NCBI GenBank assembly: GCA_950106755.1
Contig: OX467090.1
Location: 1,550,001 to 1,614,000, forward strand
Direction of reading: 5' to 3'
From: Climacium dendroides
Lineage: Eukaryota; Streptophyta; Bryopsida; Hypnales; Climaciaceae
Length of the DNA stretch: 64,000 bases
The notes below the pieces were generated by a model, which was not told the origin of the DNA, made no database searches, and was given only the letters and a program-made list of their open reading frames with translations. Both the position numbers and the translations under genes were made by a program. Below, piece by piece: positions 43,561 to 60,914 of the stretch; the first letter of the stretch is position 1, and every line of letters begins with the position of its first letter.

Positions 43561-43620
43561 ATCTTTGTATTGAATGAAATACACATAATTCAAATATGAA
43601 TGCATATAATGTCCAACGAC

Positions 43621-43822
43621 GCTAGTTTGTGAGCCTAAAAGCGTGAGCTCAAGAGCTATGAGCATACATTTTGTGAGCCTAGAGCGTTGATTTAAAAAAA
43701 TTAAAATTTGTTTAGGCCAATAGAGAAAAAAGGGGAGACATTTCAAAAATTTAATATTAATAGTAAAATTTCAGCCCTATGACTGTGGATCTATAACCGT
43801 GGGATTGTTGTAGCATGCACAC
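43621..43822 (+). repeat. left terminal inverted repeat of the 16-kb element
   Basis: The terminal 43 bp (GCTAGTTTGTGAGCC...GCGTGAGC...GAGCTATGAGC) match the complement of the right end at 37 of 43 positions. Homology resumes at 43784-43802, where TGTGGATCTATAACCGTGG pairs with 59590-59608 with one mismatch. The arms differ in length between these blocks through an AT-rich insertion on the left. Confidence 0.8.
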
Positions 43823-43850
43823 CATAATTTTTTTTTTTTTTGGGGGGGGG

Positions 43851-44035
43851 TGAAAGTCCCGACTTTGAAGCGCCTAAAAGGGGTTTCTCGGTACCAAGAG
43901 AGGTTTTCAAGGGTGAAAAAGTCGCGGAAAAAAAAAAAAAAATTGGTTGAAAGTCCTAACCATGAAACCTCTCAAAGGGTCTCTTTGTATCGAGAGAGGT
44001 TTAGGGTGGTGACAAAGTTGCAAAATTTTGGGTGA
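43851..44035. repeat. ~95-bp subterminal tandem duplication in the left arm
   Basis: Two diverged copies share GTTGAAAGTCC/GTGAAAGTCCC, then GAGAGAGGTTT/AAGAGAGGTTT, and end AAAGTTGC/AAAGTCGC. Homopolymer runs (T then G at about 43829-43850, and A at 43927-43941) separate them. Subterminal duplications are common in Mutator-like elements. Confidence 0.6.
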
Positions 44036-44270
44036 TTTTTTGGGACCTACTTACAACATGACAAACAACTCTTTGGACTTTTGTCATGGCCTAATTTTTG
44101 CCCACCAGTGCTTAAGTGGTCAACTATAGGTGGCTCAACTTTAAGAGTTTTTGTCTTTCATGAATTAATGATATTTGAAGGTAAAAAATCATTAAGTTAT
44201 TGATTTTTTCAAGTTTGGCTTGTTGAAGCAAATTGTCCCAATTTTTAAATATTGAAGTTCATTAACTTAA

Positions 44271-44501
44271 CCCCTGAGCGCCCAGCGCAAATTCCAAAAA
44301 CAAGCTACAAATTGCCACTCAAGAAGACCCCACTGATTTAAAAATAAGATCCAAGAGACATGACCATTTAGATTGCAAGAGAGGTAGGGAGGGCATCTTT
44401 GGAGAAATTTGTGGACGTTTTCACCATACAACCTAGGACATTATAATGGTCAAATGTCTCATAGTAGGAGGCCACATTTGGGGCGCTGGGGCGCTCAGGG
44501 G
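44271..44501. mobile_element. nested piggyBac-like MITE (231 bp)
   Basis: The ends are CCCCTGAGCGCCCAGCGC and the complement GCGCTGGGGCGCTCAGGGG (one base indel). Both are flanked by TTAA (44267-44270 and 44502-44505). It is too short to code. Its termini share the CCCCT start and GCCC core with the 1.1-kb element at 28215 but differ in the middle (GAG against CAC), so the two are likely related subfamilies. It is younger than the transposon it sits in. Confidence 0.88.
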
Positions 44502-44940
44502 TTAAGTTTAATAAAGCTCAACACTCAATTGTCGATGGCCTCAATCTGTTTGGATGGGAGGAGCGGAAAAAAAAAAATTTAAATTAAAATGGGGGTACAC
44601 TAGGATTAGGTGGATAGGAATATTTTGTGAGGCTTTAATATAAAATCAGTCCCACTTGTGTACTTCTTAAGTCCTAACCAAACACAGATTGAGGGAAAAG
44701 CATTGCAGTGTACTTCCACACGTTTCATACATTACACATAGTATATAAAGCATTTACATTGCCTATAGGGAGAAGAATATGCAACAATTAAAGTTACACA
44801 CTAATCACTCTACAAAATTATAGATAAAGCATATATAGTTCCGTACATGTAGTATTTTCACTCAAAGTTCCAAATACATATGAATCTAACTTTACATGCT
44901 GGGCTTGTATAGGACGGTTCTACATATTCTAACTACAGTT

Positions 44941-47900
44941 TTAAGAATTCATTTTGATCATCCCTGCATTTTCAAGTAGTTTCATGACTTCATCCATGCT
45001 GAGGCTTGGAGCATGGATGAAGGGGTCCTTCTTCGAATCTACTTTGCAAAGGTAACAGAAAATGTAATATAGATGTTTGCAGTTGACATATTTCCCTCGC
45101 TTACCAATGGAGGCAGAGATCATAGTGCTAAAGGACAAGATGGAAAATTAGAAAGAGTGACCCGGTTCACCATATGGTGAGGTTCTACGCCTGATTGTAG
45201 AGTAATGATAGCTCCAAGTCCTGGGTAAGGCAAAATGTTCACTCCGAGAATGATTCCAGATACATTTTGGGCACTCTCCCATTGATTCCGGTGCTCATCA
45301 GTAGGTGCCTTCTCATTCCTACGAATGTTTTTTCCATTCCTAACACATGGTGGCTTGTTAGCATGAGGTGGTCTTGCGTACGTCCATTCTACAACCTCGA
45401 ATAGTTTTGAAGACGTGAAGAGCCGTCGTGGAGACAAAGGTAGTTGCTTCTGGAGGTTGAAACCTGCTTCTTCAAACAATGTGATTTCATCAGAAGTGAG
45501 GGCAGTACCAAGCATCACAGGCCACACGCGAGGGATTTCAGGTCGGCTAAGAACATGAGACCTTCTGAGACCCATTACACAGCGCTTGATGTCGTCTGGA
45601 CAAAACCAAAATTCATTAGTCTCCACTCTAGACCCTTTGAACTCACGCTTCTGCCCCTTATATAATGGAGCAGCTATGGCTGTAGCACCCCTCACAATGA
45701 TCATCTTGCACTTAACCTCCATTTCCGATTGAATGTCATGGCACTTTCTCTTAGACTTCATAGAAAGGCGGGCTATGTGCCACTGAAATGGATCACAATC
45801 TGTCTCCAATACATGTTTGACATGAAGAACTGGTGGTGTATCATCCACTGTATTCCTAACATGGCTTGGAGCTGACCGAATTTGAACGCGTGGGTGGGAA
45901 AAATTCACCTTATCTAGGCAATGAGAATCTCCTTCGGAGCCAATAGGAACATCAAAGGTCCTCTTAATGGACCTAAACACTTCTTCTCCTTCCAAGTGGG
46001 GGATGCGTGTACAAATGTCTTCAGCACCAGGCATACTGCACAAAGCATCAGTAATTCGTTTCCCGTCCATTGATGCTACTGCCCTCTTCAACTTTAGGTC
46101 CTGACGGGAAGGTCCATGTCCAGATGGCCCACCATTAAGGTACATTCGGTAATTGGTCATCTGCATGAAGGCACGAACCCAATCATCACATGTCGCAATG
46201 TATAAGTCCGTTCCGCGTTTACCAGATGCTTGTAGCCACTTGTTGTGAATCGTCTCAGAGAGGTTACAAGACAGAATGTCAGCCAATTCTTCCACCGATA
46301 GATCCTGTACATTATTTTAGCACTCACATTAGCAATAATCCAAAAGGCAATGTGAAAACTGCATATAAAGAACAAATGAATCGAAAGGTAGAAGAATGCG
46401 ACACTTACAGTTTCCATGAAGCCCCCCCATTGGCGGTATTTGAAGTGCTAGAAGGCTAACCACAATTCAAGCTCCTTCAGAGATTCCTCTGATGCTGCAC
46501 CAGAGGAGTACCACCATGCCTTGATTTGGAGGTACCTACTCTCCGCTTCCTCCAAGTTCTTAGCATCTTTGTAGTCTCTGCACAGCTTCATGTGTTGGCA
46601 TTGAAGTTCGCGCTTAATGAGTTTTTTAGTGTGTTGCTTCATTGAGGTAGCCCAATGAAAAAGACAAGTGCGTTCTCTGTCAATCATCTTGATAGATGGA
46701 TCTCTAGATCCATAAACAATTCTAACAGCATTCCAATTGGCTTGTGCCCTGTCTGCCATAAAGTCTTTGAAGTTAGGATTTGCCAAGTCGTTCTTCTCCA
46801 TTACTTTGTTGAGACACCTCCACATAATGACTTGTCCTTCGGTATCTTCTGATTGCATGTCACAAACTGCAATTGTCATTACTTTGCAATAAATTGAATC
46901 ATATACGTGGCAAGCAATTGTGGTCTAGCCCTTGACGCGTTTCACATGATCAAACATAAGCCAACAATTTGCCAGATCACCTCCGGGTTGCATCCTCCTT
47001 ACAAGGTCAACCCCGCTCCCAGGGCCGTCCACGAGCATCTTGAAGACATACACCTTATCCTGTCCCTGTCCCGGGAACACACTATCATGAATAAACTCAA
47101 TCTTTGCTTGTTTCTTCATTGCAAGTAGACGATCAATCTCCCCTCCTCCTCCTCCAGCATTACGAAAAGAAGCAATGATGTTCCTCACATTTAGCGAACT
47201 AAGAACTTGAAATTTATCCATGACATCATCAAGAGCCTTGCCATGCAACATCTCCTTGGGTCCATCACCAGAGTGAACTAAGAATGTATCGAGGAATTCC
47301 TTGCTAGCAGCCAAAGCAATGGCTGATGCTTTGGCAGTAGGGGTTTTTGAAACTTCTTTTGCAATGAGACCTGAGATAGTATCAAATGCATCTCTACACA
47401 ATCCATCACTAACTGGGTGGACATGAGTGCCTAGATGGATGCATACCCTCATTATGTGGGATGGACCCATGACATAGTAAATCCTTCTGTCACAAAAATT
47501 GATACAAATGGGCAGTAATTTGCAGACTTTGCAAACTACAGTGGAGTCTCTAGGCGGATTGGATCCTACAAGGAATGGAGTGGCTGTGTTACCCATCCAC
47601 TCTGTTTCGTTTCTACTGGAGCATCGATTCAAATAATCGCATGCAGGATTTGAACATGCCAAATGACCAACACAAGATGACTTCCTGAACTTAAGCCCTA
47701 ACTCATTGTGAATATTAGAAGTGATTGTACGACACCATGTATGGCCATCATAGCGCTTATCCATGCCACCCATATTCTTTGAAGAACTGGATCCAGACAA
47801 CGACCTACACGGTGGAAGCTCAAAGATAATGTCTCCATCAAAGCTAGTTGGAAGGAATTGGACCTTCTTACATTCGATTAAATCGAAGTTGAGATTTGCA

Positions 47901-48565
47901 ATCTCGTTCCTAGATCCTCAAATACTAGCTAGCTTTCTAAGACTTTGTAGCACACTCGGGTGATCACGGTCTGTCGGATAGAGGGGAGGACGTGAGAATA
48001 TTGAGCTCCCAGCACTACTATCACGCAAACCAGTAGACTTTGTGGCCTCGATTCTTGTAGAAGCATCATTCAATTTAGATGGAAAAGATTGACGACTACT
48101 ATTTCCATGCTCATCCTTTGAATCACTGGATAAGTCAACTACTGGACTTAGTAACTCACGTACCACGCAATCGACATTGAAACGGTTCTCTTCCTCATCC
48201 GCTTGAGAAGGATCAAGTGACTCTCTCTTAACAGATCTCAATATTGGAAATTGTGCAATGGATGCATCAGAAATAGGTGTTACTATCTCAGTCAAAGCAT
48301 TCACAACAACAGATGACAAACCAAACGCTCTATATCGACCCACTACTAAGTTCCAAATATATCCATATTGATTAGCAGTTCTAGGTATGAGAACCGATTG
48401 AACAAGTGTTCCTGCCTCAGAATAAATCTCTTCTTCAATGTAGATGGAAGACTCTAGGAAACCGTATCGAACATGCAGAAGGTTGCTCGACAAATTTACA
48501 AAACCAGTACTACCGATGCGAATGAGAAGAGGCACCTCATGCCCATTTGCTCTAATGGATGCCAT
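44941..48565 (-). pseudogene. Mutator-like transposase, broken by three stops and a frameshift
   Basis: Reading from MASIRANGHEVPLLIRIGST at 48565 (an in-frame upstream ATG lies at 48664), one frame runs to a donor at 46409, interrupted only by TGA at 47918, TAG at 46925 and a TAG at about 46448. An intron 46408-46305 then joins in phase to exon 46304-45120. A shift near 45130 moves to the frame ending at 44941. A zinc-finger block (HTWCRTITSN, then CVGHLACSNPACDYL) resembles the WRKY-GCM1 type. The MULE-like core has TTIACHVYDS, VMTIAVCDMQSEDTE, FMADRAQANWNAVRIVY and RTCLFHW. The C-terminal SWIM-like part has FPSCP then GKYVNCKHLYYIFCYL. Total length is about 1180 codons. It would have catalysed excision and insertion in the nucleus. 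All three stops can be made by single transitions, for example from CGA, CAG or TGG. Confidence 0.8.
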
Positions 48566-48664
48566 TACAGATAAGACTAACGAGTTCCAAAAATGATAAA
48601 TCACTTGAGAACATACAATCTTCCTAAGCTTAAATAGGACGCTAACAGACCCACATCTAAACAA

Positions 48665-50214
48665 AAACGGAGAATTTTAAATGGTGAACACTACTAATCA
48701 GTTAAGCCAGAACATTAAATCTATCTGCCCAAATAGTGTCAGAGATGTAAATGGGTGCATTAGCTATCTAAAATTGACATACGGGACAAGCCACACAAAT
48801 AAAGAGAACTATCAATGGTGGTTCATCTAAAGAAGTCAAAGTAATGACCTTTTCAAAATATTTCAAGTATGTACAGTTTGAATGAAGCTATTAACATATT
48901 ATTATCAAGAGAATGGTTTAAAGGAGAGATTGCCTGCAGTTAGAATCTAGAAGGGGCGCTTTACGGTTTATTGCAGGACCTATAATGAAGCTAGGATTTG
49001 GATAAATCAAATCCTCATTACGACTAGCTTGGAAAACAATCCTCAATGGAAGATTGCCAGTAGCATCAAATCATAGGAGACAAGGGATTCAAAAAAGGGA
49101 ATGAAAACTTTCTATGAAGTCATCCATTACTGGAATTTATTTTTTTTAAAACGACTACATACTACACTATAAGTACATAGAGAAAGTCTATATGAAGTCT
49201 CTTACATTCCTATGCTGAGATTTCATGCATTTTGATATTCTAACTAGTGAGACAAGATATGCATGCATATGACATTTTTTAGTGGATCAGTTGAGGTAGA
49301 TGCCACCAAGGACAGCCACTTCTGGTGCTGAAAATAGTATTCGTAAGCAAAGAAAGAGGAGAAGGAGTTCATTCTTCTTCAGTAGTTACAAGGCATTGAA
49401 GAGGTCAAGGATGAAACGAAAGAGGCTAATTCGCAAGACCCCAACATCATCTGAGCCTGAGGAGGAGAAGGTGGAAAACTCACAAGAGACATCTCTCATA
49501 TGCAATCCAGGGAAAGGGGAGCAATCAAGTTCAAATCACCATAGTGCACAGAGAAGTGAACGAAATGACATTGATCCAAGTAGTGAACAATTGTGTAATG
49601 TATGTATGATGTCTCTTATTAGATATGCTGTGGACTATGCATATTCTTCCTAGTTGATGCTAGACTCACCTAAACAATGAAGACATGATATTGATATTGA
49701 ATGTATTGTGTCTTGTCTATTTTTTTTTCGCATTTTGAAGTTATACTATGCATGATGAATACCCCATTCTAATATATTGATGAAGGAAGTCCAAAACCTA
49801 TAATCATCATGTCTCCTCGTACACAACGAATTTGGCAAAAAAATGGGATATGGCCGACGTTAAAGTGAATTCCCATTGAACCCGAAGTATACATTGATAA
49901 GTAGACATCCTCTGAAGGCTTAGTATAGTCTGCAGTTTTATGGCCCTAGTAGGTCCCTAGATGTAATTAGAGCCCTAAAACCGCAACCCGTAACCCTAAT
50001 TTGCCCTTGCAGTCGCTTATCGCATCCTGATCATTCTTTCTGCCTCCCCGCCTTCGACGTCGTTACGCCTCCCTGCCTCCAACGTCGTTGCGCCTCCAGC
50101 TTGAGTGTGAACTGCTTGGCACCCTGTGCGTCTCCCTGTCTGCATTTTCTCGTCTTTCTAGAGTTTCCAATACTTTGCTCTTGCCATTAGGTATCCCAAA
50201 TTTGTGAACATTTG
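48665..50214. promoter_or_regulatory. central divergent promoter region of the 16-kb element
   Basis: This lies between the transposase start and the first putative exon of the methyltransferase gene. It holds the basic ORF at 49300 and, close to the plus-strand gene, GTAACCCTAATTTG at about 49989, a telo-box-like motif. No clear TATA box was identified. The sequence on the transposase side (48665-49299) shows no other feature. Confidence 0.4.
49300..49653 (+). CDS. small basic ORF, 117 aa, inside the 16-kb element
   Basis: It begins MPPRTATSGAENSIRKQRKR and its first half is very rich in Arg and Lys (RKQRKRRRSS, RSRMKRKRLIRKT), like a nuclear-localisation or nucleic-acid-binding tail. The second half is acidic then Ser-rich (SEPEEEKVENSQE) with a CNVCMM pair of cysteines near the end. 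It has no homolog that I recognise. It could be an intronless gene of the transposon, or a detached exon of a larger gene. The frame is intact. Confidence 0.4.
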   Translation: MPPRTATSGAENSIRKQRKRRRSSFFFSSYKALKRSRMKRKRLIRKTPTSSEPEEEKVENSQETSLICNPGKGEQSSSNHHSAQRSERNDIDPSSEQLCNVCMMSLIRYAVDYAYSS

Positions 50215-50485
50215 ATGGAAGCTGCGGCAATGGAGACAAGGCGGAGCCGAGACCTAGCACGGCGGGAGCAAGAGGCTGCGATAGTTTCAGCATCGGATTG
50301 TGATACTCGTGAGGTACAATCTTGAATCATGGCCTTTGAATCGCATCCCACATGATATCCGGTACCCTCAATAGATTTCCGAGAACCCTCCCTTGTCGCT
50401 TATGTCCCTTATTCGGCTTAGTCGTTGTTGATTGAGTTTAGAAATAGGAGAAGATCTGGACCGAGGCGTAGTCTCAGTTTTGAGT

Positions 50486-51067
50486 TCTCGCCACCGAGAG
50501 GGAGTCATTGCGCGGATTCTCTCAGTTATCATATTTTGAATTTTGCAGTAGGTTTTGATCTCAATCTCGTGTCCGTCGCTCGACAGTCTCGCCACCGAGA
50601 CATTGAATATCAATTCAAGATGTTGGAGTAAAGTCCGATCGCTTACCGCATTTTTCTGATTCTCTCGTCATCGAGACGAAGGAATTGTGGAAAGTGTTCT
50701 TTAAAATATTGTCGTTTAGATCTTCCCAAATCGACAGTGCGCGTTAGCATCAGATTCTCACATTTCAGTGGCTAGAGCAGCAACACGAAGCCGGGCCGCA
50801 TCTGCTTGAGTGTTGCAAGGAATTGCGCCAACCAACAGTTGTCTCGCCATTGAGAAACTCCAGGCGAGCTTCGCGTGCCGAAGAATTTTTTTCTTTAAGT
50901 TCATGTTTTTCAGATTTTTTAGGTTTCTGTCCACACAGAGGAACATGAGGATTAGTCTCTCGCCACCGAGATTCAAATTCGGAGATCAGAGACTACTGCG
51001 ATCTTTCCAACTGATCTGCTTTGAGTTTATCATGTGGGAACATGGGATCCTTGTCTCGCCACCGAGA
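50486..51067 (+). repeat. hairpin-motif cluster A (6 copies of TCTCG-N4-CGAGA)
   Basis: Copies of the inverted repeat TCTCG-N4-CGAGA start at 50486, 50587, 50663, 50842, 50958 and 51054. Loops are CCAC in four, TCAT and CCAT in the others. One copy (50586-50601) extends to a 6-bp stem as GTCTCG/CGAGAC, and the one at 50842 has TGAGA on the right, leaving a G-T pair. Spacing here is irregular (76-179 bp). The surrounding DNA differs between copies while the motif is kept. Confidence 0.9.
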
Positions 51068-51319
51068 TAGATATTCGGAAATCATAGACCGTTGTCGTGC
51101 TGTAAATACATGCACTGTATAGAATACATATATAATATATGTATTAAAAGATTCTTGATTCGGAGGAGAAACTTACTGATGACGCTTCCGTTAGCTTCAA
51201 GGTGATGCTTGTTAGCAATGGAATTGTGTTTAAGGTGAAAACCTTAAACAAACTTCATTAGTTCGACGTATTCCTTTGGGTTTTAGAGTTTATGTTTAGA
51301 TTTAGAGTTCGATATTAAA

Positions 51320-51778
51320 ATGTCGAACTGGAGGGTTTTTATGGAGTCACAAGATGTAGAGTCTGATCCGGAGGCAGAGCTAGAGCTTTCTTTGTCACAG
51401 CTACTTCGTCAGCCATCTCAGCTAGCGATTTCTACACCTTTGCCTACCTCTGTTACAGATGAGGCCGGACCTTCTCGTCCATTAAAGAAACCTCGTCTGG
51501 ATCGTAGGTGGCATGAAAATCTTGATAGAGACGCCCGTGCTTTGGTGATCCTACTTCAAGTAGGATGTGTTGAACCTGGTACGCATGATGTGATGTTTGA
51601 AGCAAGCTACGAGGGCTTAAATGAAGACCAGTATTTTTGTATGAGGAGGCCAGACATAGAAGGTACTAGCCATCAACGTTGGTTGAAAGGACCAGTGAAT
51701 CCTTTAACCAAGGCTGAATGTGCAGATTACGTGGCCAACACTATCAAGCACATCCTCAAGTTCTTGCAGATGAAGTAG
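51320..51778 (+). CDS. intact 152-aa ORF between the two hairpin clusters
   Basis: The frame starts MSNWRVFMESQDVESDPEAE and stops with TAG. Residues 18-35 are acidic and Leu-rich (EAELELSLSQLL). A Pro/Ser-rich basic stretch, GPSRPLKKPRLDRRWHENLD, could be a nuclear signal. The C-terminal half is well structured (ARALVILLQVGCVEPGTHDV; EDQYFCMRRPDIEG; QRWLKGPVNPLTKAECADYV). I do not recognise a family. It is the only full-length undamaged ORF of this size in the element and lies within the putative first intron of the methyltransferase gene, on the same strand. It is a candidate accessory or DNA-binding protein, by position only. Confidence 0.55.
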   Translation: MSNWRVFMESQDVESDPEAELELSLSQLLRQPSQLAISTPLPTSVTDEAGPSRPLKKPRLDRRWHENLDRDARALVILLQVGCVEPGTHDVMFEASYEGLNEDQYFCMRRPDIEGTSHQRWLKGPVNPLTKAECADYVANTIKHILKFLQMK

Positions 51779-52239
51779 CGTTCTTCATCGACTTCAATTT
51801 TTACCTTCACTGGTTGTTAGTTGGAGTTTAGCTTATAATATATATTTTTTATGATTCATTTGTATGTTAGAAATAGAAGAATGGGGGTTTAGAAGAAAAT
51901 TACCACCTAGTTTGACCTTAAAGGTTCATTGGCTTTAAAGATGAATAGGAACTTACCTTTAGGTGTTTTCCTTGGGCCAATGGTTGTGTGGGGGTCCATG
52001 GGCTGATCCTACTCACCTTAGGAGTCTAGATGATAGGTGGGCATCTTCTTGCTCCTCCAAGTCGGGTTTTGTGTGTGGAAAGTTAGGGTTGTTTTGGAAA
52101 AGGTTGTTAGGAGTATGTGGGTGAAGAGCCGAATGTTTGTTTGGCAAGAACTCTTGTTGTATGAGGAATTTGTTAATGAAAATTTGAGGGTTTCTTCCTT
52201 ATAAAATTGCGCTTCTATGGACACCTTTCTTGCTTGATT

Positions 52240-52790
52240 TGGAGTTGTGAGTGAAGAGTTACAAGCATGTGAGTGGAGGAGGGTCTGTTGCCACCCATCG
52301 AAGTGGAGCGGAGGTTCGGGCGATCACCACAGTTTGTGATTTCATCTTCTCTCTTTGAAATTTTCAAGCATTGTAAGAGTTTTTCTTAGCTTTCTATAGA
52401 CATATGACTCGAAGCATTTGAAGTTGTGAATCAAAAGTTATGTGTTGTCAAATTATAAGGAGTCTGCTGCCTTTCAAATGAGAAGGCCGAGACTTTGCTT
52501 GATCATAACTTTTGAACAGTTGTTTAGAATGTTTTGAGATTTAAGGTGAAGTTAGTTTGAAATCTTAACTCTTTGTAAAGCTATAGTACTTGTGATTTGA
52601 ACAAAAATTGAAGGAGTTATGAGAGTTTGAGATAGGAGAGGTCTGTTGCCTTTCAATAGAGAAGGCCGAGACTTTGATTGTCCATAACTTTTGGATAGTA
52701 TCTTAGATTCATTTGAAAATTTTAGGGTATTTGTATTATGTTGTTAGCTTTTCAAAATGCTATAGCACTTAGCATTTGAGTGTGTAGAAC
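52240..52790. repeat. 179-bp tandem repeat, three copies
   Basis: GTCTGYTGCC marks equivalent points at 52283, 52462 and 52641, exactly 179 bp apart. Copies two and three also share GAGAAGGCCGAGACTTTG, CATAACTTTTG and the following CTATAG-CACTT. Copy one is more diverged. It lies between the 152-aa ORF and hairpin cluster B. Confidence 0.75.
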
Positions 52791-53489
52791 ATCTGTAGTA
52801 CTAGTTTGAAGACAACGGCCATTTACAAAAGTTTCTTTTGAAACTATTTGGAGTTTCTTCAAGTTTTGGGGTGAAGAAAGACTCCAAGACTCAAGGCTTT
52901 GGAGATTTGAAGAACCTTGGAGGTGTTGTATATGTTGTGGCTTGTGGTTCGACAGGATTGTTTTCATTTGTTATTCCAAGCCAGTTTTGGAGGCTAGTTG
53001 CAATTTCAATTTCAGCTTTGTGAAATTGTTGCGAGCCGTGGTTATCCAGTAAGCGCTCCATTTTGTGTTTGTGGCGACGAAGTGGGGTTAATGGCCCACA
53101 TGGTCAATCTTTTATGTTGTTCCCACCGGTGAAAGGCGCTTCCTGGTCACCGTGGGTTTGAAGTTTAGGAGCCCATCATCCGGACAGTCACTCGTGTTGG
53201 CCGTCCCGTTTTACCCGTCCCAGAACTTGTTTCTTATCACACACCCTTACCTTGGCCCTTTAGAGCCACCTCAGGATAGGCCAACAAGGACGTGATAGGA
53301 GATTGAAGACTGAAGACAAGAAGGTTGAAGACAAAAGACGGAAGATTCGACTGAACTCCCTAGCAGACAATTCACAGTTGCAGCCAGATACTTTGTGTAT
53401 TCTCGAAGCGCTTCCCTCTCAACACGACACCGCTTTGACTCCCCGACTGAAATGCATTATTCGGAGCTTGTGGGGACTTAGGATCCTGA

Positions 53490-54432
53490 TCTCGCCACCG
53501 AGAGTAATTTCTAGAAATCATCCTCTCGCAGATTTTTTAGTCAGTCCAATGTGATCCTCTACATAAGCATGCGGGATCTAAAGGCCGTGGGGTCTCGAGA
53601 TTTTATCTCGCCACCGAGAGCCCTGTGAGGGTTGTCCTGTTTGCTGGACTGCTGGACTGCTGCGAGGAACTCGGGCCGTGTTTGCTGGACTGTTGCAAGA
53701 AACTCGGCCTCTGACAAGAGTCTCGTCACCGAGATATAGCATGCGGGATTCAAGTCCTGCAAACTTTGTTTTTATTAGGGTTTTTTTTCCGCAAAATGAT
53801 TTGTATATATCCTAATAGGTGGGCTTGAAGTAAGGGTCTCGCTACTGAGATAGAAATTCGGGGAGAAACTGCATGCTCAAATTCTAGTAGGACAAATTAG
53901 ATATTCTTGAGTACTTTGCATTTTTTGAAGCTAGTGGGGACTTGGGATCTTGCTCTCGCCACCGAGAGACATTTTTGGAAATCATCCGCTCGCCTATGTT
54001 CTAGTTGGGCCACTGTGATTCTTCAAGAAAGCATTCAGGATCTACACGCCATGGGGTCTTTAGAATTTCTCTCGCCACCGAGAGCCAATTCGTGGTTTCA
54101 ATTGTTTGCGATAATCCCAGTTGGTCCATTGTGATCCTTCGAGTAAGCAGGTAAGATCTGCATGCTGTGGGGTCTCAGAGTTTTCTCTCGCCACCGAGAG
54201 CCAATTTGTGGTTTCAATTGTTTGCGATAATCCCAGTTGGTCCATTGTGATCCTTCGAGTAAGCAGGTAAGATCTGCATGCTGTGGGGTCTCAGAGTTTT
54301 CTCTCGCCACCGAGAGCCAATTTGTGGTTTCAATTGTTTGCGATAATCCCAGTTGGTCCATTGTGATCCTTCGGGTAAGTAGGTAAGATCTGCACGCTGT
54401 GGGGTCTCAGAGTTTTCTCTCGCCACCGAGAG
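53490..54432 (+). repeat. hairpin-motif cluster B (9 copies, ~116-bp period)
   Basis: Stem starts at 53490, 53606, 53721, 53837, 53954, 54070, 54186, 54302 and 54418, so all eight spacings are 115-117 bp. The last four copies lie in near-identical 116-bp units, while the earlier units have diverged outside the motif. The last five have a full 6-bp stem CTCTCG-CCAC-CGAGAG. Earlier copies vary mainly in the loop (TCAC, CTAC) or have TGAGA. Minus-strand frames across it (up to 87 codons) are translations of the tandem units. Confidence 0.95.
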
Positions 54433-57400
54433 CCGATTGGTGGATTCTTTTGCTTGCAAAAATTCCAGTTGGTCCAGATACGAAGGAGCTGAGCCTTCAC
54501 AGGGATTTCTAAATCATGACCATTCCAATGAATATATGAGGTCCTAATAATGCTTATATTTGTGCAGGTGGATGCCGCTGATGATGATGTCTCGGTCGAA
54601 AATCAATTCCAAGAAAAAACAGATCCTTCATTGGAAGAGGATCTTGCAAGCATCTCGATGGAAGAACCACGATCGTCTCACGTGGTACAGCAGCCTGCAT
54701 CAATCTCGGTGGAGGAGCCACAAAAAGATATCAATGTTGGAGGTGGTTCTTCTGCAATCCAATTGCTTGAGGGAGAAGATGACATTCACAAGTCTCAGAA
54801 GCTTGACTTCGTAACCACAATATCGGGATTGCGTTTTGTCCTAGTCCATCTCTTACGAATGAAAATTCCACTTTGTCGTTTGGTTCCAATGCCAATGGTT
54901 AGACCGACTCTTAATTGTGATCTAACTAAGCTAGAGCAAGAGTTTGTGCATGGCTACGAAGAAGGAGCTCGAGTCTTTTATGTCTCTATGGCAAATGAGC
55001 AGGGCCAAGGAGGGACATTCTCAGATTCAGAGAAAGCTGAATGGGGCTTGCATTGGAACTCAGTGAATGATGAGTTCAATGAGAAACTTCGGGGCGTGGA
55101 GGAGCTCAAGCATCACGAGGATGCAAAGTTTTATGTCTGTGACAGAAATCATCGTCGAATCGCATGGATGAGGCACATTAGACGTCTCCATAGTGATGAC
55201 TTGGCTTGGCACATATTGGTTGACTCAATAATTTTAGACACAAAAGGGCGTGTAGGAGTGGCGATGCAGGTCATGCACGACATCAACAAGTAAGATTTTA
55301 TTCATGTCCTCTTTGCATTTTTTGTAGATTGCAACGCTCTTTTGATATCACAATTGCATAACTTGTGGATGTCTTACACTCGATTCATGGATGTTTTCAG
55401 GCACACTGAAAACTCTCATGTGAAGACTAATTTAGTACACACCTTATATCGCGTTCGCAAGTACAGGTCGATGCCAATTGAGAAATTCAAAGAGCTTCTA
55501 AGTGACGCCGATGTCAAAGCTTGTCAACAAAATGTGAGGAAGACATGGTACTCCATGCCATTGGACGTATTTACGTCATTTATCTTTCAGGTACTGTGTT
55601 CCAAAACAAGGGATTCTCTTTTGATCATAGTGGAATTCCTTTGTTAGTATTTTGATGCGAAATTGTTGGTGCATGCAGCAAGAAATTGCAGCAGCCTCGG
55701 ACGCAGTTGTCCGACAATACCACGAGGACACCCCTCTTGAGGAAGTTACTGATGCGGGGGTTGCAGCTGCAATGAAGACTTCTACAAAGGATGACACACA
55801 TCTACTATATAAGAAGCTATCAAAAATAGTTTCTGTTGCAAATCCAGCACTAGGAGATGATTGGCTTCAAGAGGTACACATAGACATGTTTTACTCCCTC
55901 AGCACATACCTATTTAGAATTATTGAGGTTGACCATTCCTATAAGTATTCGGAAGTAATGAGTTGGTGACGATATTACAGTCTCTGGACCGAGACAAGCA
56001 CTTAGCTATCCAAATTGAGAGTTTATGCTTCTTAAATCTTGTAGTCTATCTTCCGTGGATTCTTGAATTGGATCCATTAGCATGTAACTAGAGTGTCTTA
56101 CCCTAGTGAATTGGGTCACTAGGTTGCTTCTCTAATGACATTCATTTTCATTTTTTCAATATCTATTCAGTTTTCTTAGACTCTTCTTGCTGGGCATCGT
56201 CCGTACTTCCTAATTGAGCCCGTAGATTTTACTAATTTGCCTTCATCCATGCTGTGACTTCTGATGTATTTTAGAATTTAACTACCATAGTCTCTTACTC
56301 CTACCTTTGCGTTGTTATGATCCTTGTACTGTGTGCCATGTTTTCAATCCATCCTTTCATAAACCCTGCATGAACATGTACTTCCTCACTAGCACTGTGT
56401 TAAGTTTCTCAATATCGGTTAAATTTTCTCCAGATCTCACTCTTGCGATTGTCAATGTATGTTATCTAAATCGGGAGCTAGCTTTTTTCATTGATTGACG
56501 TTTCTATTTGATCATTGACAGATTGAACGGCATTGGAGCATGTACGCAGTCCAGGAGTTGACTCTTGACAAGCTTCAGCTCATTGCCACAGCAAATGCAG
56601 CCTCAAGTCACAAGGTGAAGTGGCTCAAATGGCTCAATTCATCTGGACCTACACGTGAGGCACGACGATTTCCACCAAGACCAGCCAATGATGACAAGAT
56701 CAACTCCTTCCTTGCCAAGGCGTGTTGGTATGCCGCGATATGAATCTGTCACAATTTATCATGCAAATTGAGCAAATGATTTGAGTTATTGTTGTTGACA
56801 GTAATTGATGTCATTATTTTGGCCTGGGTCAGATTGAGGATGTTGTTGTCAAGATGTACGAGGGCATCATCCGCTCCGATAATATTCATGTGGATATGGC
56901 TGTTGTTGGCGAGCCTGAATCTCTTGTGGATTACATAGAGGGATGGCAGATGAAGGTGTGGGACCACGCCTACCCAGGAACTTTTAAGGGTGCAGATGCC
57001 TTCAAGAAGTCAAAGTCCTTTAAAGACCAGAAGTTCTATAACCTTGTGGTTAAGAGTAATCTATAGGTGAGGGACCTCATTTCCAATCTCTTCATTCTTA
57101 GCTTTTCAGGGACATATTTGTGGATTACTGTTGTCTACATGATTAACTAATATCTTTGAGTCCCGGCCTTGTGCTATAGGTACTTCAAATTTGAATTGTT
57201 TCCCAAGAAAGCAATTGCGAAAGCTGACTTACCGCCTTTCCTCAACACCTGGCTTGACCAGACCTCCTCCGACTACATGTTCTCACCGTCTCAAGTGAAA
57301 AATTGGACGAGTGCTCATTTGCAATCAGGGGCGTGGTACCTTGAATGTAGTCAGGGGTTCATCCCACCTGAAGAGACGGCACTCTTTCAGTCCATCAAAG

Positions 57401-59569
57401 ACAGTGGCGTGGTGGATCCACAATTTGATGAATTTGCGGGGCTTGACGCTGATGCTCGAGAGGCTGCTTTGAGGAAGAGAGAGGCATCTGACAAGAAGAA
57501 GGAAGAAAAATGGGAGTTAGCAAAGAAGAAGACTAAGGAGAATGATGCTAAGAGAAAAGCACGTGATATCGAGAAAGGTAAGGCCGAGGCAAAGGGTAAG
57601 TTGAGCGGAAGGAAGAGGAAAGCAGAGTCGCAAGGACCAGAGCAGGCTACTAGTGATGGTGCGATGAAGCCCACCTCCTCAGCCTTCTCACTCACGCAGA
57701 AGAAGCTTCTCCATGGGCTTCCTTCCAAGGCCTACACTTTGGAGGCACAGGATAACGTGGATGAGATTATCTTGAACCTTGGAGTCTCTAGCTTGCTGGG
57801 ATCTGATGAGGATGCTGTACCTGCATCGTTTGATGTCATCATAGAGTTGTTCAATAAGGTACTATATCTCTTCATTCTTACATGGTTTCATTAGATGAAG
57901 GTAATGACATTGAGGTTATTGTGATGGCTGAGTCCATGATGTAGCGTTCCTATAGGTAATTTATGGCTAATTTTTTACCTGGATTGTATGTGATCAGCAT
58001 GTAGCAGACAAAGAGCGCTTCTTCAATGGTGTGGTTACTGGGCAGGCGGCCGTTGACCTCATAGTTGTAGATCTCCTAGAGGGATTACCGGTCCCACAGT
58101 TTCCAATCCACCAACATTGGTTCCCAAATGGAACGAGTTCTCGGCGGAAGGTCTTACTGATGTCTTCGATTTTGCTGACAACTATTTGCACGACGGTGGT
58201 GCTCTCCTTGTGATGTACCCATTTAGTCGTGACATCAAGTCTCACTTGCTTGGAAATTTAAAGTCATTTGAATTTACTTCAAAGAAGGATTGGTGGGGCA
58301 TGAATAGGCTCCACCTAGCGTCTCCATCCGACCCATTAGCCACGGTATGCTCTAAATTCTTTGAGTTTGTATTAGGTTCCTAAATTTGAATTTCATCTTT
58401 AAGGCCATTCAATAATTCTGATTGTTTTGTAGATGATGCGCTTTGCAATTTCACTTTACGTGAGAGGTTCCCAGGGCCGATTCAAGAGCCGGTTTTCATT
58501 CCAAGATGTACCTGAGCATGAAGCAGTAGGCATCAATGTGGGTCGAGACGACATCTTGCAGAATTTCTGTGGGAAGGATGATGTGGCTTTAAACGGGAAG
58601 ATTCCTTGGCGGGGTCCTCGGAAGAAGGCCCGGGCGTTTATGCAAATGCTTGTGGAAGCAACGACCTTGCCTGGTAATATTGTCATGGACTGCACCGCAT
58701 CTACAGGTTTGTATTTCCAGTTAATTTTTGTGAGTCCCGAATTTTAACCACATTATGATTTGATGTATTCATTCCAGTTCATGTAGATGGTTCAATGACT
58801 TCCTTCTTGTATGCAAGTTCATGTGTATATGCTTGTCGTGCTACTGGTCGTCATATTGTGGCCTTGGAAGCAGAAAAGTCCATATATGATGCACTGCTAG
58901 CTCCATTAACTCGCCGTGCATCGAATACTGTGACTCAACCGGAACACACTCCTGCTCCTCCAATTGATTTGGAAGAGGAAGAAGTGCCCGTCCGTCATGT
59001 CGTGAGGACTTCAAAATTTAGTAAGTAAGTTTATCCCTAAATTTTCAAAGTTATCCATCTAGGTTTCATCATGTACTTTGATCTCATGTGTGGTCTTTTT
59101 TTTGTATAGGCAAGCAAAGAAAATGAGAACGGCACAACATCGACTGTCCTTTGGGAAGGCTCCATTCTTCTTTAGCCCGCCTAAGCCATTTCATTTACCA
59201 GTGTATGCCGAGGTATTAGCTTCACAGTTTGCTACTTTTGGCAGTAGACAGTGTTCAAGGATTTGTAAGGTAGATCCTCGAGTTCTCATGTTCATAGATG
59301 ATTCGGCTAAAGAGTCAATTAGTGAGACATCAAATAGCCATGACACTTCTTCATGTAGATCTCCTGGTAGTTCTTCATCCAGATCTCCTAGTACTTCTCA
59401 TCACTGATCTCTATTGTGAATTCTATCACTTCTATATCTTACTAAGGGTTATACTTTTCACATTCTTCAAGTCCACTATATGTTTTTATTATTCCTGAAC
59501 CCTAATCCCTTGTTATATTTTTGTTATCCTAAAGCCACTATTTCTCTACTAATTTGTATTCTCACACAC

Positions 59570-59695
59570 AAAGCCCTACAAAATGTTAACCACGGTTATA
59601 GGTCCACACCCCATAAATTAAAAAAAATTTGGAAAAGGTTGAAGGCTCAAAAGCTCACAGCTCTCGGGCTCACGCTCCAAGGCTCACAAACTAGC
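59570..59695 (-). repeat. right terminal inverted repeat of the 16-kb element
   Basis: Reading inward on the minus strand it starts GCTAGTTTGTGAGCCTTGGA and continues GCGTGAGCCCGAGAGCTGTG, then an AT-rich spacer, then GGACCTATAACCGTGG. It lies about 160 bp beyond the methyltransferase stop codon. The outer flank is ACCCCCGATG. Confidence 0.8.
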
Positions 59696-60914
59696 ACCCC
59701 CGATGTTTTCTTCAAGATTTATTTAAAAATTAATCTTGTTCTTGTTACTTACAATTGAGTAACAAATTCAATGGTTATGATAATGGATTCTTTAAGTATA
59801 TTGTGTAAGCTCACCAAACACATTGCATACAAAAATCAATTATATACTAAATTTGTGTGTTCAATTGGCCAAAATTTTGTCACTTCAAATAGTTATGTTG
59901 GCCGATTTCTAAGACATCACTTCAATAGTTATGTTTCAAATATTCATTTTTCATCTATGTAGTATAATAGATATAAGAAAAATTTTATTCATATTTTTTT
60001 AATATAGAAAAAATTCAATTCAAGAATTGGACCAAAATTCAAGAAGATATGGATGGATGAAATATTTGGATGAAATGCAAATGAACGAGAATTCAAGAAT
60101 TCTACTCAAACCTCATTTCTAATTAAGTGAGCATTCTAAGTACTAGTGTGCCTTGTACCATTGCTACAATATAATCAAATATAAAATATAAATATTTTTC
60201 TAATTTTCTAATTCATGAAAAATTTGAAATCAATAACTTTGACATTGTAGGCCTAGATGCCATAAAATAAATCCATGCACCCCTCCTCATAAAGAGCTTT
60301 CCAATGTTATCAAGAATTCGACCGGAAGATGCACAATCCAAAAGATCTCACTACAATAAACAAAAAAACAAAACAAACAACTTCATTTAAGATGAAGGTT
60401 TCCACTTCTTTGAAGAGAATGAGGTTAAAACAACCAAATCCTCCCCACTTACAACATAATAAAAGTAGAAGTAAAGAATTGATGAATAAAAATAAAAATA
60501 AATCATTGAAATTCAATTCAAATAATTAAAAAATCATTTTGAATATCATAGCTTTTTAATTGTATGCTCACAAGTCATAAATTTAGTCCATGTAATTCCA
60601 TGAACCCTGTATTTGGTTGATTCATCAAAGGTTTAAAGGTTCTATCATGTGTACATATATGCATATATACATGAAAAAGATAAAATAAAACAAAATATTT
60701 TTATAAACAATAATAGATGATTGGTAATTACCCTTTTTGAAATAAAATTTACTAAGAATAAATTTAATAAGAAAATAGAATAGCAAGCTTAATGCCAAAT
60801 CTCTTTAAATATATACTAAAATCCTATAGCTAGGGAAAAAGCTCTTGATTCATCAGGTAATTGGAGGATGAACGGGACAAGTTGGTTTCAAATGTATTTA
60901 TTGGAAATAAAGAA

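Follow-up and report, generated by a model that had tools for sequence, protein, structure and literature searches.

What does a methyltransferase-like gene contribute to the DNA transposon that carries it? This question is raised by a 64,000-nt stretch of the genome of the moss Climacium dendroides (GenBank assembly GCA_950106755.1, contig OX467090.1, positions 1,550,001 to 1,614,000 of the forward strand; hereafter the window), in which an earlier note, made from the sequence alone, had recognised a Mutator-like element (MULE) of 16 kb with a transposase gene and a second, intron-rich gene. Our analysis indicates that this methyltransferase-like second gene is a constant part of a transposon family, and one that has been under selection. 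As judged from the predicted sequence, the second protein combines two modules, one with a ParB/sulfiredoxin-type fold and one resembling a beta-class amino-methyltransferase, and the first intron of its gene contains an array of a 14-bp palindrome. The protein most likely recognises the TCTCGCCACCGAGA array in its own gene, targets the copies of its own element and opposes host silencing, a reading to which we assign a probability of roughly 0.5.

The element and its copies

The genome examined is that of the window itself (412.6 Mb, 123 contigs), and all copy counts are lower bounds, the best 40 candidates being scored for each end or segment query. With the first 600 bp of the element as query, at least 32 full-length matches of 92–100% identity (self included) are detected, in addition to one covering 497 bases and other, short and weaker matches; the last 600 bp detect at least 28 full or near-full matches, two split ones and weaker ones. 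When ends are paired by position, each of 30 right ends finds a left partner where one is expected, giving at least 30 two-ended elements; of the left ends, two complete ones and the partial one remain unpaired. The paired copies measure 13.0–14.1 kb in 18 of 30 cases and 9.4–44.8 kb in the rest, the window copy being 16.1 kb in length. The methyltransferase segment, 57998-58706, is present in at least 30 near-identical copies (95–100% identity, 29 whole and one split), one per paired element. Neither of the outcomes against which the earlier note had set its claim, inverted repeats enclosing the transposase alone or a methyltransferase gene at unlinked loci, is observed in the element's own family, because all 30 near-identical segments found sit between both ends. 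Weaker methyltransferase matches lie outside the elements, nine at 70–74% identity among the 40 scored, five of which were read. The ten copies fetched for comparison are 96.4–99.1% identical among themselves and 95.9–96.8% identical to the window copy, and the family is young and recently multiplied. Transposase sequence is present in all ten, C41_27.718 having shortened frames only. The two shortest paired copies, of 9.45 kb (C1:27623268-27632717 and C40:2955773-2965225), have both ends and the methyltransferase segment, fall ∼3.9 kb short of the 13.3 kb that is usual and are possibly derivatives without transposase.

Comparison with the ten other full copies sets the window copy at 43614..59702 (16,089 bp). 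The inverted repeats described previously are confirmed, both the terminal pair (43621-43663 and 59653-59695, 43 nt, 86% identity) and an inner block (left arm 43784..43802, + strand; right arm 59590..59608, - strand; 95% identity), but the ends marked at 43621 and 59695 are not the true ones, which lie 7 bp further out on each side, because all 11 copies begin CAACGACGCTAG and finish CTAGCACCC[C/T]CG. From the inverted-repeat search and the copy comparison, the left terminal inverted repeat, beginning CAACGACGCTAG, occupies 43614..43663 (+ strand) and the right, finishing CTAGCACCCCCG, 59653..59702 (- strand). Direct repeats of 9–10 bp abut the ends in all ten fetched copies, nine perfect and one with a single mismatch; among five further copies with both flanks, four have a 9–10 bp duplication (three perfect, one with one mismatch) and one, L004/L027, has none. 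In total, 14 of the 15 other copies are flanked by a target duplication of 9–10 bp with at most one mismatch, 12 of them perfect, so that the further copies with common ends and duplicated target sites anticipated by the earlier note are indeed found. No target duplication is present at the ends of the window copy itself. Mutator elements generate target duplications of 8–11 bp, mostly 9 bp, and assignment to the Mutator superfamily, as originally claimed, is supported by the inverted repeats combined with the 9–10 bp duplications.

Signs of purifying selection are detected in the coding sequence of the second gene. Between the element's own family (family A) and a diverged family in the same genome (family B), nonsynonymous (pN) and synonymous (pS) divergence over 859 codons is 0.26 and 0.83, respectively, the latter value being saturated. 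Within family A, ten of the 11 aligned copies were counted, with the window copy included and C41_27.718 omitted for its large length difference. The ratio of nonsynonymous (N) to synonymous (S) variants is 0.37 for variants present in at least two copies (30 N, 23 S) and 0.72 for private variants (122 N, 48 S), a pattern suggesting that the gene was constrained during the active period of the family and has decayed since.

Structure of the second gene

The second gene extends from 50230 to 59407 on the + strand, opposite to the transposase gene, and its 11 predicted exons, modelled from conserved frames and splice sites across copies, encode a product of 1149 amino acids (aa). Predicted exon 1 (50230..50313) is followed by exon 2 (54568..55289), which contains the ParB/sulfiredoxin-fold module, exons 3 (55401-55590), 4 (55679-55873), 5 (56522-56737) and 6 (56833-57066), exon 7 (57180..57858), coding for a lysine-rich linker and the beginning of the methyltransferase part, exon 8 (57998..58344), with the motif IV region, exon 9 (58433..58706), with methyltransferase motif X and the beginning of motif I, and exons 10 (58817-59024) and 11 (59110-59407). 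The window copy is decayed, with stops in the transposase and, in the second gene, lost splice sites and small deletions: the donor after 56737 and the exon 10 acceptor are changed, 2 bp are missing near 57053 and 1 bp is missing near 58096. The two-gene content reported earlier stands, but it had been overlooked that both genes are broken here, that 51092-53429 is a later insertion and that intron 1 contains 15 palindromes. Under the final splice model, two of the ten other copies have an uninterrupted 1149-aa frame for the second gene; C38 and C34, which were open in an earlier model, differ at the last-intron donor and were not confirmed. Since intact transposase and second-gene frames are found outside the decayed copies, some copies retain open frames, and by these frames the family appears to be autonomous.

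Two alternative exon boundaries were rejected. An exon 1 at 51320 proved to be an open reading frame (ORF) inside the insertion 51092-53429, which is missing from three copies aligned to the window; a query of 51251-51800 has no match in any of the ten other copies. The exon 10 acceptor at 58787 was replaced by 58817, where the ten other copies read GCAG before and GTTCATG after the junction. This correction restored the motif I spacing, and the expectation value (E) for PF01555 changed from 0.034 (whole protein, acceptor 58787) to 6e-6 (343-aa part, acceptor 58817).

The second protein and its altered catalytic motif

With the corrected acceptor the second protein matches PF01555 (N6_N4_Mtase) at 26.8 bits, compared with a cut-off of 26.7. 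The previous reading as a beta-class amino-methyltransferase therefore passes narrowly, and with an acceptor taken from other copies, the window copy being frameshifted. The same domain is matched by one member of each of three families, A, B and C (best E 1.9e-6; one stop in the family C peptide was typed as W). Matches among Protein Data Bank (PDB) sequences are DpnA (E 5e-4), CcrM (0.014) and MboIIA (0.18), and motifs occur in the beta-class order IV, X, I.

The tetrad (D/N/S)PP(Y/F/W) of active beta-class amino-methyltransferases is absent. Among the 11 copies of family A, motif IV reads DLPE in nine and DLLE in the remaining two (window, C34); in family B it reads DVPE (L059), DVSE (L061) or GVPE (L063), with L062 frameshifted after DVP, and the one family C copy has DVPE. 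The aromatic residue of DPPY is gone in every reading. The motif I loop, aligned to DPFMGSGTT of DpnA, is DCTASTGSC in family A and DCTAATGSGAT in family B (L059, across an inferred exon junction). The proposal of the earlier note that the extra gene may write an N6-adenine or N4-cytosine mark is not borne out and appears doubtful, because the best-preserved copies of three families have D[L/V]PE, with E in the aromatic position, and not DPPY.

Exon 2 has 261 homologues in the public protein set. Residues 90-1080 of the second protein (earlier splice model) detected no homologue at E 1e-3 among 7987 candidates scored, most likely because of introns, as exon 2 alone matched 261. An exon 2 profile built from two sequences matched nothing among PDB sequences; built from 84, it gave no ParB match, the best being KMP-11 (E 0.064). 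A single-sequence structure model of this exon was discarded at a predicted local distance difference test score (pLDDT) of 34.5. DUF1985, the VANC family domain, is not found in the second protein in Pfam scans at E up to 1.

The palindrome array

Intron 1 of the window copy contains 15 matches to TCTCGCCACCGAGA with at most two mismatches, compared with 0.07 expected, all on the + strand between 50486 and 54431; four of these lie in 116-bp tandem units at 54003..54476 (+ strand). The array is present in all 11 copies, with 7–12 matches per copy to a stricter 12-bp pattern and, at up to three mismatches, 12–15 clustered sites per copy beside scattered single sites. Sites are mostly spaced 95–117 bp apart, some 74–76 and 179–182 bp. 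Most spacers are unrelated though the palindrome is conserved; in C39_22.3, the 80 flanking bases between sites are mostly 20–40% identical (range 16–71%), with the 14-mer retained. A related palindrome, TCTCGGTACCGAGA, occurs ∼270 bp from the left end in C39_22.3; the window has it at 43886, apart from a single mismatch in an arm.

A similar cluster is found in L059, the single family B copy read in this region: here the arms TCTCG-N4-CGAGA recur at three sites within 520 bp, none with more than one mismatch. The three sites precede exon 2 by 1.3–1.8 kb, a position that intron 1 occupies in family A. Simulations gave a mean of 0.25 sites per 17 kb and no such cluster in 200 runs; at two mismatches, the 17 kb of L059 are not enriched (7 sites against 5.0). 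The core is CCAC in family A and GTCC, GTCC and GGAC in the three L059 sites. No transposase match was detected in the 17 kb examined around this copy.

A GACA-N6-TGTC array in family B was rejected as a target array, being located inside a CACTACAAG...CTTGTAGTG insertion, of the CACTA type by its end sequences. At L059:1940-2160, upstream of family B exon 2, such GACA-N6-TGTC repeats lie in a small CACTA-type insertion with the ends CACTACAAGAAAA...CTTGTAGTG. The family A array of the window copy is broken up by the insertion 51092-53429 (2.34 kb), which has a 3-bp CCG repeat at its borders, short inverted ends TGTCGTG and a 163-aa ORF at 51287-51778.

Possible roles of the second protein

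VANC-like self-recognition is proposed because the element has the layout of VANC and its motif arrays, with a different protein. The second protein would bind the TCTCGCCACCGAGA palindromes of its own gene's first intron, would by this binding be directed to copies of its own element and would there keep up expression against host silencing; it may thus constitute a VANC-like self-recognising regulator made from unrelated, prokaryote-type parts. Both the binding of the array and the anti-silencing outcome we infer by analogy. Since the catalytic tetrad is altered, we lean towards a role exerted through binding and occupancy more than through writing of a methyl mark.

Alternatively, the second protein could be an active N6-adenine/N4-cytosine DNA methyltransferase which marks its own element, its ParB-like part targeting the array. 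The PF01555 score above cut-off and the beta-class motif order are consistent with activity, as is the GSG-type motif I loop retained in the diverged copies L059 and L064, and self-marking has been proposed by the Ectocarpus authors for a comparable protein, in the available part of their report (PMC12477816). The glutamate in place of the DPPY aromatic residue in three families and the family A loop DCTASTGSC argue against it, and we consider this doubtful, though deserving of some weight.

That the array is a site for the transposase or for some transcription factor of the host, as an intron 1 enhancer, with the second protein working elsewhere, for example as a transposition cofactor, is unlikely. 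Transposases or host factors can act on arrays of short motifs close to the genes of an element, and the TCTCGGTACCGAGA palindrome near the left end is consistent with such a use. However, the array lies within the intron of the second gene in 11 of 11 copies, and the same-arm cluster upstream of exon 2 in family B has no transposase found beside it.

A partition-type self-protection seems rather improbable: a ParB-fold protein would load on a parS-like array, perhaps as a nucleoside triphosphate-dependent spreading clamp, with the methyltransferase fold non-catalytic or re-purposed, and core and protein would have co-diverged between families. Passive capture of a host gene without function, which Mutator-type elements often carry out and with which the broken state of the second gene in several copies would agree, is strongly contradicted by the 30 of 30 linkage, the indications of purifying selection, the presence of diverged relatives in the same genome and the 261 exon 2 homologues, and is very improbable.

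Relation to known systems

The kind of cargo is already known, because ParB-methyltransferase genes in algal transposons and SET genes in MuDR elements have been reported. The Ectocarpus element Sola1-1_Ec32, a large DNA transposon, has a ParB-methyltransferase accessory protein, and green and red algal elements are cited as well in the available text (PMC12477816), the authors of which suggest self-targeting. As described there, the algal proteins and the second protein are alike in length (∼1100 aa), in combining ParB-like and N6/N4-type methyltransferase parts and in that the transposase is encoded on the other strand; the present element differs from Sola1 in being of Mutator type with 9–10 bp duplications and may differ in its altered tetrad and in its intron 1 palindrome array. 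The earlier statement that no plant DNA transposon with this cargo had been described consequently holds at most for plants and fails for DNA transposons overall.

VANC proteins of VANDAL elements bind arrays of short one-orientation motifs in non-coding parts, including introns of their own genes, and relieve silencing, according to the available part of PMC5735166. VANDALs and the present element share a Mutator-type superfamily, an accessory protein and short one-orientation motifs arrayed in introns of its own gene. In contrast, no DUF1985 is detected by Pfam scan in the second protein, its motif is palindromic, unlike YAGTATTAY, and terminal inverted repeats are present in the element, whereas PMC13317346, in the portion available, describes VANDALs as lacking them (non-TIR). 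SET histone methyltransferase genes in Phytophthora HarbingerS and MuDR families and TET/JBP genes in fungal elements are reported in PMC12730594; these are likewise DNA transposons, some of Mutator (MuDR) type, with an epigenetic enzyme, but enzymes and hosts differ and the accessible text does not mention a target-motif array. Phage and prophage proteins fuse a ParB-CTPase fold to an N6_N4 methyltransferase (PMC12704722, available part), the same domain combination, from which the second protein differs in being eukaryotic, intron-rich, altered in its tetrad and transposon-borne. Foldseek matches to viral proteins include a phage protein annotated as DNA methylase.

A Mutator-type element with ParB-methyltransferase cargo was not found in the open-licence literature and, as far as that literature was searched, the Mutator-type carrier, the altered tetrad, the palindrome array and its possible second-family counterpart are new. 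The 14-bp palindrome, which recurs 12–15 times within the gene's own intron in 11 of 11 copies and has a similar cluster as its counterpart in one diverged copy, provides a candidate target, so that self-recognition becomes directly testable with one protein and one motif, in a young family whose numerous copies include open frames. If the system is VANC-like, sequence-specific anti-silencing would have arisen more than once in Mutator-type elements, from unrelated proteins. The altered tetrad also cautions against calling such genes N6-adenine or N4-cytosine writers by domain name alone.

Transposase gene and minor observations

The transposase gene occupies 48565-44941 on the - strand, with one intron separating exon A (46409..48565, 2157 nt), which in the window copy has in-frame stops at 47918, 46925 and 46448, from exon B (44941..46304), the frame of which is broken near its end in this copy. 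Fifty-eight homologues of 45–70% identity are present in the public protein set, in which the residue patterns FDH (52/58), MAD.A..N (53/58) and C-x-x-H (52/58) recur; these presumably correspond to the MULE core. In Pfam scans, with the core tried at E up to 10, no transposase family was reached. We infer the transposase class from these patterns and call the element Mutator-type. The spliced 1176-aa transposase is open in two of the nine copies parsed by script, window included; of the two others, C41_27.718 is fragmented; for C39_22.3, the ORF list shows both long frames to be open. Homologues of the transposase (P0001-P0058) and of the ParB-like exon (P0059-P0178) form large families with no Pfam domain listed in the public protein set. 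P0049, a transposase homologue, and P0106, a homologue of the ParB-like exon, each come from a 185,737-bp contig, suggesting that the two are linked in another genome. Near the left end of the window copy, a 231-bp insertion at 44271-44501, missing from three aligned copies, is bordered by a perfect inverted repeat of 20 bp, AACTTAACCCCTGAGCGCCC, and resembles a small non-autonomous element.

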